A DNA stretch of 64,000 nucleotides from Halobaculum sp. MBLA0143 (GTDB lineage: Archaea; Halobacteriota; Halobacteria; Halobacteriales; Haloferacaceae), in contig NZ_JBGKAC010000001.1 of assembly GCF_041361465.1 (NCBI RefSeq), positions 62,001-126,000 on the forward strand, written 5' to 3'. A model generated the notes under the pieces. That model was given only the letters and a program-made list of their open reading frames with translations, was not told where the DNA came from and searched no databases. Every line of letters begins with the position of its first letter. The stretch's first letter is position 1. The translations under genes were made by a program, and so were the position numbers. Positions 50,587-54,406 of the stretch are shown one piece after another.

Positions 50587-51447
50587 ATGGTCCCCAGACG
50601 GGATAGACTGAAAAACCGGGAGGAGACAGTTTTTGTAGAGACTGTGAACTCAAGAGACATCCTCCCGCTCGGTGTCGTGTTGATAGCCCTGTCGCTCGTT
50701 GTCGTCGTCGGTCTGTTCCTCCGTGGGCGTGGGGTTCGAAACTGGCTCCAGATCGTCGAAATCGGCTCTAGCGTTGTGCTCTCTGCGTCGCTAGTGTTCG
50801 TGTACCTGAGCCAGAACAAGATTCTTCGGAAACACCGCCGAATGATGAGCGCCGGGTACTCACCTGTTGTCACTGTCAGAGACGTATCGTTGGTGGAGCG
50901 CGCCGGTAGTAAGTTCCCCGGTAGCGAACAGGGTTTGCTCCAGACTCTCGAGGTGACTGCTACTAACCGAGGTAACGACATTGCGGCGAATTTGGAGCTA
51001 CGGTGTGTTCTCGACGACGGAGAGCAAGAGTCGAGTGGCCTCTTATGTAGAGGTTCCTCAAACACTACAGAACCACGAACTGTCTCTCTCCACCTCGAAG
51101 AAGAGTCAGACGGAGTCTACAGAGACGGCGGACCGGCGTTGCCTCCGACGATGGAGGAGTCGACGACACTGTACGGCCATGCCGGCGTGAACGCCGACGG
51201 AAGGTACTGCACGATCCCCAGAGCGGTCAAGAGAGCTGCGGAACGGGGCGCAGACAGAGTCCGTCTCGGCTTCGTCCTGCGGTACGACGATGCCTCTGGA
51301 AAGACGTACTCCGTTCTCCTCCGAGGGTTCGGGATAGACGACCCCGGAGAAGGAGTGTCGTTCGACGACCTGGCGAAAACGGGAACTGAACTCTACCGAC
51401 GCGACCTCGACGGACGCATCGACGAAGAGCTCCAATCGGCCGAGTAG
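50587..51447 (+). CDS. Unknown membrane-anchored protein
   Basis: A 286-residue protein with two hydrophobic helices (about residues 28-46 and 55-75) and a large soluble C-terminal domain. The C-terminal domain is beta-rich (SPVVTVRDVSLVERAG...; YSVLLRGFGIDDPG). No family recognised. AT-richer codon use than neighbours. It is divergent from the small gene at 50240-50551 and converges on the gene at 51457. Confidence 0.6.
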   Translation: MVPRRDRLKNREETVFVETVNSRDILPLGVVLIALSLVVVVGLFLRGRGVRNWLQIVEIGSSVVLSASLVFVYLSQNKILRKHRRMMSAGYSPVVTVRDVSLVERAGSKFPGSEQGLLQTLEVTATNRGNDIAANLELRCVLDDGEQESSGLLCRGSSNTTEPRTVSLHLEEESDGVYRDGGPALPPTMEESTTLYGHAGVNADGRYCTIPRAVKRAAERGADRVRLGFVLRYDDASGKTYSVLLRGFGIDDPGEGVSFDDLAKTGTELYRRDLDGRIDEELQSAE

Positions 51448-51456
51448 GCACACAGA

Positions 51457-52197
51457 CTACTCGGAGTCTGTCTCGTTGAGCGGCTCTCCCGCCTCTCCAG
51501 CGTCGACGGTCCGTGTCGCCCGTGCTGGGAGTCCACCCGGATCGGTCACGTCCCCCGACCCGCTCCCGCTGATGTCGACCGGAAGGTTGAATGTGTACTT
51601 CAACAGGAGTTCTCCCATGTGTGCGGCCATTCGGACACACTCGACTGTGTCGCTGAGCCGACTGATGGAGAAGTCATCCTCGTACGGGAACAGTCTGTGG
51701 TAGACACTGAATTCGGTGATCCCACTCCCCTCTCGGACAGCGCCGACAGAGTGCTTCAGTCCCGCTCTGGTGAACACTGCAGTCAACTGCAGGATAAGGT
51801 TGCGACGACTCTCGTGTGGTAGCGCGTCCAACACCTCGACGGCAGCAGCGAATCGACGCTGTCTCGAGTCGTCGAACCTCTCTACCCCTGGAACGACAGA
51901 CTGAACGGGGTGTGAGTCGTCGACTGTCGGCGGTGCGTACTCGTCGATGTCCGTCTCGGAGAGACTCTCTGCAACGTCCCTCCAGAGACGGTACGTCGCT
52001 TGAAGACGGAAGAAACGTTCCCCCTCCGTTGCGACGACGGTGTAGTCGGGACCCACGGGCTCTTCAACGTGTACCAGCCGTTGCCGTGGTTTGTCGTCGC
52101 TACTCTCCAGGTCGTACGGTTCGACCTCCCCAGCAAAGTCTGATAGAAAACCAACGACGGTGTCGGTAGCCTCCTCGAACGTCTCGCCGTCGGTCAT
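51457..52197 (-). CDS. Unknown protein, operon partner of ArsR-like regulator
   Basis: A 246-residue protein of mixed alpha/beta character with no membrane segment. Residues about 25-75 are acidic beta-like (YTVVATEGERFFRLQATYRL), and the middle is helical (ALPHESRRNLILQLTAVFTR). It may be the ligand-responsive partner of the regulator whose gene is three bases upstream. No family recognised. Confidence 0.6.
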   Translation of the reverse strand: MTDGETFEEATDTVVGFLSDFAGEVEPYDLESSDDKPRQRLVHVEEPVGPDYTVVATEGERFFRLQATYRLWRDVAESLSETDIDEYAPPTVDDSHPVQSVVPGVERFDDSRQRRFAAAVEVLDALPHESRRNLILQLTAVFTRAGLKHSVGAVREGSGITEFSVYHRLFPYEDDFSISRLSDTVECVRMAAHMGELLLKYTFNLPVDISGSGSGDVTDPGGLPARATRTVDAGEAGEPLNETDSE

Positions 52198-52200
52198 CGA

Positions 52201-52653
52201 TCAGGTCTCGACAGCGACTGTCGCCTCTGGGTGACTCTTGGCCAGCCGCTGAGCTTCGGCCACCTTCTCGTCGTTCGCCAGCGACTGCCACTCGGGACGG
52301 TCCTCCTGCTTGTGCACGTCCTCGTTGTGAAGACGGCGTGTGTACTCCAGGAGCCCCGTCTGTGCCTGCCGGAGACCCTGGACGACCGAGTCCTCTAAGT
52401 CGATCCGGTACTCCTTCGGGCGGCCGTCGGACACTTCGACGACACCGAGGTCCTCGAACACCTCGATGTTGCGGCTCACTGTACTCTGATTTACACCCGC
52501 ACGCTCAGCCAGTTCAGTCTGATCCAGCGCGACGTACGAGTCTCTCATCAGCACGTCCAGCATCTTGACGCGCGCTTTGGTCTCCAGCAGGCGCACGAAC
52601 GCGGAACTCTCCGCGACACTACTGGGACTCGACTGCACGACTGGATCTGTCAT
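52201..52653 (-). CDS. ArsR-like winged-helix regulator
   Basis: A 150-residue DNA-binding protein. Residues about 20-85 form a winged helix: KARVKMLDVLMRDSYVALDQ, then ELAERAGVNQSTVSRNIEVF and EDLGVVEVSDGRPKEY. The C-terminal tail is charged. ATG 52653 follows a TATA-like GCTTTATG (26-33 bases upstream) and a purine-rich GAGGAGAG close to the start. It is the first gene of a coupled pair. Confidence 0.75.
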   Translation of the reverse strand: MTDPVVQSSPSSVAESSAFVRLLETKARVKMLDVLMRDSYVALDQTELAERAGVNQSTVSRNIEVFEDLGVVEVSDGRPKEYRIDLEDSVVQGLRQAQTGLLEYTRRLHNEDVHKQEDRPEWQSLANDEKVAEAQRLAKSHPEATVAVET

Positions 52654-52768
52654 CACACTCTCCTCTAATGCATCACTGCATAAAGCTATTTTGGAGGCTT
52701 GCCGAGCTGTTCACAGCGGCTCTCACTCACACTGTCACTCTCTGAGCCACGGTGACACTATCTCACTG

Positions 52769-53629
52769 TCACTTCCTCAGCCGCGGCGACACCAGCGTCT
52801 CGGTCGTCCCGTGGCCGTCGCCGAAGTCGTACTCGAAGCGGACGGGACACTCCTCGCCCAGCCGGATGTCGACAGTCGCGTCGTTCGGGACGACCCGGCT
52901 CACGTCCGCGAGGTAGTTCAGCGAGAACAACGAGTCGGCGACGCCCGGCGCCAGCGACGGGAGGTCGTCCGGGCCGTAGCGGAGCCGAACCTCGTCCGTG
53001 TCCCCCTCGGCGTCGACGGTGAACGCGGGCTCGTCGGGGTCGACGCCGAGACGGACGTAGTCACCGATCAGGTCGACCGCCCGGACGAGCCGGTCCAGTT
53101 CGGACGCGGGGAGCGAACAGCCGGCGTCGTACGGGAACGACAGCTCCTCGCGGGCGGGCGGCTCCTGAACGCGCTCGGGGTCGATCACGGCGACGGTGTA
53201 CGACAGCCCGGGCAGTCGCACGTCTAAGCTCAGCGTCTCGGGGTCGAGCGCGAGCGTCACCGGGCCGTCGTCGGCGACGGACACGAGCTCGGCGAGCCGG
53301 TCGGCGTCGACGCCGACGGTCGTCCCGTCGCCGGCGTACGACACACAGCCGTCGGCGTCCAACTCCACGGTCGTGAGCGCGACCCGTGCGGGGTCCGTGG
53401 CGACGACCCGGAGCCCGTCCGGCTCGAAGTGGAGTCGACACTCCTCGACGACCGCCGACACCACGTCGAGGAGCCGCGTCAGTCGGTCGACCGCGACGGT
53501 CACCGCGACCCCGTTCGACGCTGTCTCGCTCGTGGGACCGTCTGTTGCTGCCTCGTCCGTGGGTTCGTTCGACACCGTCTCACTCCCCGCCGTCGCCTCG
53601 CTCTCCGTAACCGTCTCGTGGTCTGGCAC
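52769..53629 (-). CDS. Divergent PCNA-like sliding clamp
   Basis: A 286-residue protein with the two-domain clamp fold. The core aligns by eye with haloarchaeal PCNA: RLTRLLDVVSAVVEECRLHF, then DGLRVVATDPARVALTTVEL, LSLDVRLPGLSYTVAVIDPERV and the end DYLADVSRVVPNDATVD...VRFEYDFGDGHGT...VSPRLRK. It lacks the canonical MFKAIVSA start and has an N-terminal extension of about 42 residues, rich in Ser/Thr/Glu. A second, standard PCNA would then be expected elsewhere. It is divergent from the gene at 53743. Confidence 0.8.
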   Translation of the reverse strand: MPDHETVTESEATAGSETVSNEPTDEAATDGPTSETASNGVAVTVAVDRLTRLLDVVSAVVEECRLHFEPDGLRVVATDPARVALTTVELDADGCVSYAGDGTTVGVDADRLAELVSVADDGPVTLALDPETLSLDVRLPGLSYTVAVIDPERVQEPPAREELSFPYDAGCSLPASELDRLVRAVDLIGDYVRLGVDPDEPAFTVDAEGDTDEVRLRYGPDDLPSLAPGVADSLFSLNYLADVSRVVPNDATVDIRLGEECPVRFEYDFGDGHGTTETLVSPRLRK

Positions 53630-53690
53630 GACTCCTCGTCGGACCGGAAGCGACTTGAGTCCTGTCGTAACTCAACTGGTAGATAATCCG

Positions 53691-53743
53691 AAACAGATTA
53701 CAAAGATAGAAGTAGTGTGACAATCATAACCCAAAACAGATTA
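53691..53743. repeat. Direct repeat AAACAGATTA before the gene at 53743
   Basis: AAACAGATTA occurs at 53691-53700 and 53734-53743, the second copy ending on the ATG. The region is AT-rich, with divergent promoters of the PCNA-like gene and the gene at 53743. Confidence 0.45.
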
Positions 53744-54300
53744 TGACTGGCGACGAGACGGAGACGCGCGACCGTGGATTCTTGACGCCCGCAGACAGGG
53801 AGTACCTCCGAGGGGAACGGGAGCCGGGCAGCGTCCAGTCGGAGCGCAACACCCGTGCCAGGGTGCGCGACCGGACCCACGAGGCGCTGTACGACTTCCC
53901 CGTCGTGATCGAGCAGCTAGAACAGCGTGACCGGGAGATACTCTGTGAACGGCTGGACGGGGAGGGGGCCGCGGCGTTCGACGCACTGACGGCGGCCGTC
54001 GCCTTCCTCCACCGGGTCGTCGACGGGACGGAGCTGTCGTTCGAGACGGTGCTCGCGGAGGGGATCAACGTCGCCGCGGCGGCCGACGACCGCGCTGCCA
54101 CTGTCGAATTGGACGTGACGTACACGGCGCTGACGGCCGAGACGATCCGCCAGAAGGCACGACGGGGGGAGTCGTTGTCGCTGACCGAGGTGGCGTTCGC
54201 GGACGAGAGCGACGAGGTCGACCTGGCGACCGTCCTGGAGGCCGACGAGGAGCCGACGGTGGACGACGGCCGGATCCAGGCCCGAGTGACGGACTTCTGA
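53743..54300 (+). CDS. Unknown protein with haloarchaeal RGFLTPADREYLRGE-type domain
   Basis: A 185-residue protein. Residues about 10-60 contain RGFLTPADREYLRGEREPGS and ERNTRARVRDRTHEALYDFP, a domain start I recall in many haloarchaeal proteins of unknown role. The rest is mainly helical and acidic. No membrane helix. It is divergent from the PCNA-like gene. Confidence 0.65.
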   Translation: MTGDETETRDRGFLTPADREYLRGEREPGSVQSERNTRARVRDRTHEALYDFPVVIEQLEQRDREILCERLDGEGAAAFDALTAAVAFLHRVVDGTELSFETVLAEGINVAAAADDRAATVELDVTYTALTAETIRQKARRGESLSLTEVAFADESDEVDLATVLEADEEPTVDDGRIQARVTDF

Positions 54301-54406
54301 TCGGCGCCGGAGCCGACCCGAAGTGGTATAAATACTGTGTGTGACGGGTTCACAGTGGGCGCGAGACGGTGACGGGAGCCGGTTCTCCGGCCGGTAGCGA
54401 AAGGTA

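Follow-up and report, generated by a model that had tools for sequence, protein, structure and literature searches.

A second PCNA paired with an uncharacterised gene carrying a PIP-like tail in Halobaculum and other Halobacteriales

As a rule, the sliding clamp is a single essential hub that many clients share. Multiple PCNAs in haloarchaea are already known: the available text of a 2012 study describes four duplicate copies, one of them traced to phage PhiCh1, and mentions no partner gene for any of them (PMC3404096). In another euryarchaeon, Thermococcus kodakarensis, a second PCNA, PCNA2 (TK0582), is dispensable, and the accessible part of a review mentions no gene dedicated to it (PMC3984812). 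The canonical haloarchaeal clamp is represented by Haloferax volcanii PcnA (PDB 3ifv/3hi8). The consensus of the PIP motif is given in excerpted sources as QxxI/L/MxxFF/Y (PMC2737543; PMC4929162), and known or possible PIP motifs occur in several archaeal proteins, at the C-terminus in NucS and NreA.

Here we describe a locus of Halobaculum sp. MBLA0143 where a second PCNA, hereafter clamp2, lies divergently to an uncharacterised gene, hereafter U185. As an additional PCNA in a haloarchaeal genome, clamp2 resembles the copies reported in 2012, and it compares, by description, with the dispensable PCNA2 of T. kodakarensis. The window, i.e. the whole stretch of DNA analysed, is 64,000 nucleotides long, and the features concerned are the following:

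52769–53629, minus strand: clamp2, second PCNA of 286 amino acids with a GTG start (open reading frame, Pfam, AlphaFold and Foldseek)
53504–53629, minus strand: N-terminal extension of clamp2, residues 1–42, acidic, rich in Ser, Thr and Glu and predicted to be disordered (composition and AlphaFold)
53123–53191, minus strand: interdomain connector loop region of clamp2 (109–129 in H. volcanii numbering), remodelled relative to canonical PCNA (alignment)
53630–53742, no strand: divergent intergenic region of 113 bp, common to clamp2 and U185
53665–53670, minus strand: TTACGA element preceding the clamp2 start by 41 nt, with identical spacing in the closest orthologue (genome G160)
53743–54300, plus strand: U185, uncharacterised partner gene of 185 amino acids, divergent to clamp2
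54277–54297, plus strand: C-terminal PIP-like motif QARVTDF of U185, residues 179–185

A sequence-only reading of the window had proposed a whole-length PCNA with an acidic extension of 42 residues, and this description holds. The protein passes both Pfam cut-offs (PCNA_N, 22.7 bits against 20.3; PCNA_C, 25.5 against 23), PCNA_N alone being reported at this locus in whole-genome DNA profile searches. AlphaFold models the protein with a PCNA fold (mean pLDDT 84.5; below 50 for residues 1–38), and the top Foldseek match of that model is the H. volcanii PCNA 3ifv, with a TM-score of 0.96 by target length. The first 42 residues contain 10 D/E and no K/R. Against NCBIfam NF002222, the DNA polymerase sliding clamp subfamily matched by canonical haloarchaeal PCNAs, clamp2 scores 190.9 bits, under the curated cut-off of 207, while the canonical PCNA of genome G388 scores 364.2.

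The same reading took the protein for a second clamp and proposed searching the rest of the genome for the canonical one. A canonical PCNA of 247 amino acids, starting at an ATG, is indeed encoded elsewhere in the genome (C1:2916618-2917340), so that clamp2 is not simply the fast-evolving main clamp of its host. The two proteins are identical at 98 of 245 aligned residues (40%). The accompanying premise that haloarchaea normally have a single PCNA is no firm rule, since at least two PCNA matches turned up in 61 of the 170 genomes searched from this family, a count read by eye in which 54 were confirmed and some matches represent split fragments or a remnant.

The GTG start of clamp2 is probably right, because TTACGA precedes it by 41 nt and precedes the ATG of the G160 orthologue by the same distance. 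An internal GTG sits at the canonical start, and the extension was also considered as an annotation error; this was rejected given the equal spacing and the orthologous tails that begin at ATG. An N-terminal tail is present in most clamps of the clamp2 group, usually exceeding canonical PCNA by 10–35 residues. Its length nevertheless ranges from 0 to about 50 residues, being longest in G000, G160 and G396 and absent or nearly so in G155, G356, G181 and G259, so that the extension distinguishes the second clamp only in part. Given the poor conservation of its sequence, we take the tail to be a flexible acidic appendage. An acidic extension of about 75 residues from an ATG is also found in a different extra PCNA (loci L010, L021 and L027; also L073, L075, L089 and L334), carried by plasmids and contigs of Halorubrum, Halobellus, Halorarius and Natronomonas and not part of the clamp2 clade; the annotated PCNA start in Natronomonas marina omits it.

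The constant feature of the group, missed by the sequence-only reading, is the partner gene across the promoter. Full-length U185 was found in 43 of 392 Halobacteriales genomes (about 11%; E 4.6e-95 to 1.6e-56), spread over 10 family-level groups of the order; one further genome has a partial copy and 24 more have weak matches only (E about 1e-34 or worse). Within the family, 14 of 170 genomes have a strong match (E 7.5e-45 or better, the next best being 9.2e-19). The order-wide search and five additional genomes from the family search yielded 49 genomes with U185, its copy being intact in 48 and decayed in one, and in all 49 a clamp lies divergently adjacent to it; in G332 both genes have decayed. 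The two start codons are 41–345 nt apart by automatic reading of the 49 genomes. In Halomicrococcus gelatinilyticus the pair resides on a 359-kb megaplasmid, annotated as 'DNA polymerase sliding clamp' and 'hypothetical protein' and nothing more.

U185 falls into no known family: it has no significant Pfam or NCBIfam match and no PHROGs match, and no relative with a solved structure was found by sequence. Its structure model is too poor for use (pLDDT 47). The N-terminal region is arginine-rich, with helices predicted at low confidence. A broad haloarchaeal family (L187-L202) possesses this N-terminal region without the PIP-like tail, and the four members scanned have no Pfam family over cut-off.

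The C-terminus of U185 is conserved. The tail Q-x-x-[V/M]-T-x-[F/Y] is present in all 48 intact copies (47 aligned, plus that of G356), each of its four defined positions, Q, V or M, T, and F or Y, being filled in 47 of 47 aligned sequences; nine residues follow the motif in G298 and one in G259, and the stretch preceding it is variable and gapped. G455, the copy that has diverged furthest (41% identical), retains Q-x-x-M-T-x-F with changed preceding residues. The tail is missing in all 16 translated distant relatives of U185. As a control, a loose form of the motif was found at 41 of 1,715 non-redundant, heuristically called ORF ends from the sequences gathered for the analysis, and 39 of these 41 belong to U185. 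Compared with the PIP consensus, the Q, the hydrophobic residue and the first aromatic are present in 47/47; the tail deviates by V in place of I/L/M in 44/47 and by the missing second aromatic, mostly owing to the end of the chain. The C-terminus of the host FEN1, QTGLDDWT, is in the same register. U185 thus carries a PIP-like tail lacking the last aromatic, through which it is predicted to bind a clamp. To that extent it resembles the archaeal proteins with known or possible PIP motifs, and differs from them in having no notable Pfam, NCBIfam or PHROGs match and in being tied to a second clamp and not to the main one.

The sequence-only reading had also called for a comparison of subunit-interface residues. 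We compared 47 clamp2 with 30 canonical sequences in H. volcanii numbering, taking the roles of interface, pore and pocket residues from the available portion of PMC2737543. The interface residues R72, Y106 and D172 are retained in 47, 47 and 46 of the 47 clamp2 sequences, respectively, and are common to both PCNAs of the host. At pore position 205, R replaces K in 39 of 47. The pocket differs: M46 and M239, each invariant in the 30 canonical sequences, are replaced in clamp2 mainly by A (15) and S (13), with M kept in 12, and by L (20), V (11) and F (8), respectively, along with others, and position 122 has lost its constant I. Such a pattern is what would be expected of a clamp that still forms rings and no longer serves the same clients. 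Clamp2 is like the canonical PCNA in fold, two-domain organisation and R72/Y106/D172, and unlike it in its identity to the host copy, remodelled pocket, N-terminal tail and U185 pairing.

A phylogeny of both kinds of clamp, likewise proposed beforehand, separates clamp2 from the canonical PCNAs. Near-copies were removed before building the two trees, neither of which includes G356. In the 95-row tree, 37 of 39 paired clamps and two unlabelled copies form a clade with 99% support, apart from canonical, plasmid and viral PCNAs, and a single change explains all 39 (support 79). In the 91-row tree, 34 of 36 paired clamps fall in a clade with 99% support, and two changes are required to explain the group. 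The clamps of G155 and G181 are not members of the 99% clade, and their connector loop is canonical-like, so the pocket change is not universal. An early FastTree of 206 rows with a midpoint root had given no single clean group and included unlabelled clamp2 copies. As the clamp2 profile score fails to separate clamp2 from canonical PCNA, clamp2 copies lacking U185 were sought by tree instead of by profile, among 29 PCNAs from 12 genomes with extra PCNAs and no strong U185: none of the 29 fell inside the clamp2 clade of the 91-row tree, and U185 was present at none of their loci. Further PCNAs were noted along the way. Five genomes of genus g19 (L235-L239) have no strong U185 and share a second PCNA of about 248 amino acids, which, in the two genomes represented in the tree, does not join the 99% clamp2 clade. 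In genome G011 of genus g6, a distant PCNA-like gene is present three times, at identical scores (C1:70802, 2786820 and 2808920).

The pair occupies differing genomic places. In seven genomes of two genera, those of the window and G160 in one genus and members of genus g6 in the other, it lies syntenically between a KH-domain gene and a thermosome gene. In the window itself, three genes separate the KH gene from clamp2 (50587-52656; 286 aa on the plus strand, and 246 aa and a 151-aa winged-helix protein on the minus strand); they have no counterpart in the G160 or other Halobaculum loci compared, and the winged-helix protein bears a weak resemblance to CARF/Csa3-type regulators. The pair is flanked by nucS and mutS in two genomes, G261 and G294 (loci L346, 5769-11044, and L351), whose NucS proteins end in PPE without a C-terminal PIP motif; in Halorussus aquaticus it adjoins mutS. 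At L359 (5507-8667; G388), clamp2, U185 and canonical pcnA are neighbours, beside an RlmE-like methyltransferase gene with a TRAM domain. In a comparison of 34 loci, only the pair itself recurs widely; next in frequency are the thermosome (6 loci) and KH (5 loci) genes of the window's own group. The nucS-mutS neighbourhood of one genus is only a hint at mismatch or lesion repair, because the neighbours differ in other genera. A defence system was also considered and set aside, PADLOC giving no match for either gene.

Both genes are under purifying selection, with dN/dS of 0.18–0.30 for clamp2 in seven close pairs (0.59 in G000/G160) and of 0.07–0.28 for U185 in eight pairs; for the canonical PCNA the values are 0.09–0.11 in three pairs, about two to three times lower than those of clamp2 in close pairs. 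A pseudogene was rejected on the strength of these ratios and the conserved pairs. The distances of clamp2 and U185 are correlated (Mantel r 0.81, a value reached in 0 of 2,000 permutations), which shared species history also predicts. The two genes were lost together in G159, a genome of the same genus with an incomplete assembly (74%): the equivalent of window positions 52893-54314, comprising most of clamp2 and all of U185, is missing, and only the last ~47 codons of clamp2, with no U185, remain between KH and thermosome. One deletion thus removed both. In six g6 genomes without the pair, the KH gene adjoins the thermosome gene in five, and about 1 kb separates them in G012.

Taken as a whole, we consider it reasonably likely, if well short of certain, that the window carries one copy of a non-essential, exchangeable module of a clamp and its client, probably serving conditional DNA repair or replication. 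Clamp2 and U185 would form a two-gene module transcribed apart from one common intergenic region. Judging by its fold and conserved interface, clamp2 most likely rings DNA as PCNA does, and with its partner groove rebuilt the usual clients would probably fit it less well. U185 most likely docks on clamp2 by its PIP-like tail, and would thereby carry its body, predicted to be helical, to DNA. Because the module appears dispensable and gained or lost as a unit, it probably has a conditional function alongside the essential PCNA, for example in repair or in tolerating replication stress. The special repair or replication role suggested by the sequence-only reading fits the evidence. More tentatively, and with rather less than even confidence, the pair may be a self-contained second clamp system, exchangeable across Halobacteriales, whose private PIP tail and rebuilt pocket co-evolved, running parallel to and insulated from the essential PCNA network.

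Other explanations were weighed. U185 could act chiefly on the canonical PCNA, inhibiting or regulating it, with clamp2 as decoy or antidote, in an addiction-like or regulatory pair. The patchy occurrence of the two-gene unit in differing places, its joint loss, and the absence of any U185 without an adjoining clamp (49/49) would agree with this, as would a tail that could suit any PCNA, the canonical-like loop in the paired clamps of G155 and G181, and the small PCNA inhibitor TIP proposed in Thermococcales, as the available text of PMC4929162 has it. We nonetheless judge it unlikely: PADLOC recognises neither gene, the changed pocket of most clamp2 proteins favours specificity for clamp2, and purifying selection over the whole length of U185 (dN/dS 0.07–0.28) exceeds the need of a bare blocking peptide. 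To a similarly low degree we credit the idea, close to the mixed rings envisaged before, that clamp2 is a regulatory subunit in rings with canonical PCNA, as in crenarchaeal heterotrimers, one altered pocket per ring being occupied by U185. The conservation of R72, Y106 and D172 would permit this, but conserved interfaces suit homotrimers equally, and the supposed partner evolves more slowly than clamp2 (dN/dS 0.09–0.11 against 0.18–0.59).

Still less probable is that U185 is a transcription factor of the common promoter, its tail being a feedback sensor or a coincidence. The divergent arrangement and the arginine-rich N-terminal region with its low-confidence helices are compatible with such a role; however, no DNA-binding domain is recognised by Pfam or NCBIfam, and the tail is kept in every intact copy and missing in the 16 distant relatives. 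Finally, although PCNA is frequent on haloviruses and plasmids and the pair occurs once on a megaplasmid, we regard as very improbable that clamp2 is an ordinary viral or plasmid PCNA retained by chance in the chromosome, as in the trees the proteins of phiH1, PhiCh1 and CGphi46 cluster with canonical PCNAs and not with clamp2, 50,697 phage records contain no U185 match, no relative of U185 or clamp2 was confirmed in viral contigs, and the locus is syntenic in the seven genomes of two genera that include the window.

We return to the exchangeable module of clamp and client as the preferred reading. In the literature covered, which mostly lies outside subscription journals, we found no recognisable description of a clamp paired with a U185-like gene. 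The pairing offers a testable function for an uncharacterised family present in 43 of 392 Halobacteriales genomes, and haloarchaea in which genetic engineering is routine make the module accessible to experiment, both for the role of a clamp with a single partner and for the evolution of clamp-client specificity. A dispensable second clamp with one client would be a natural experiment in splitting the clamp hub.
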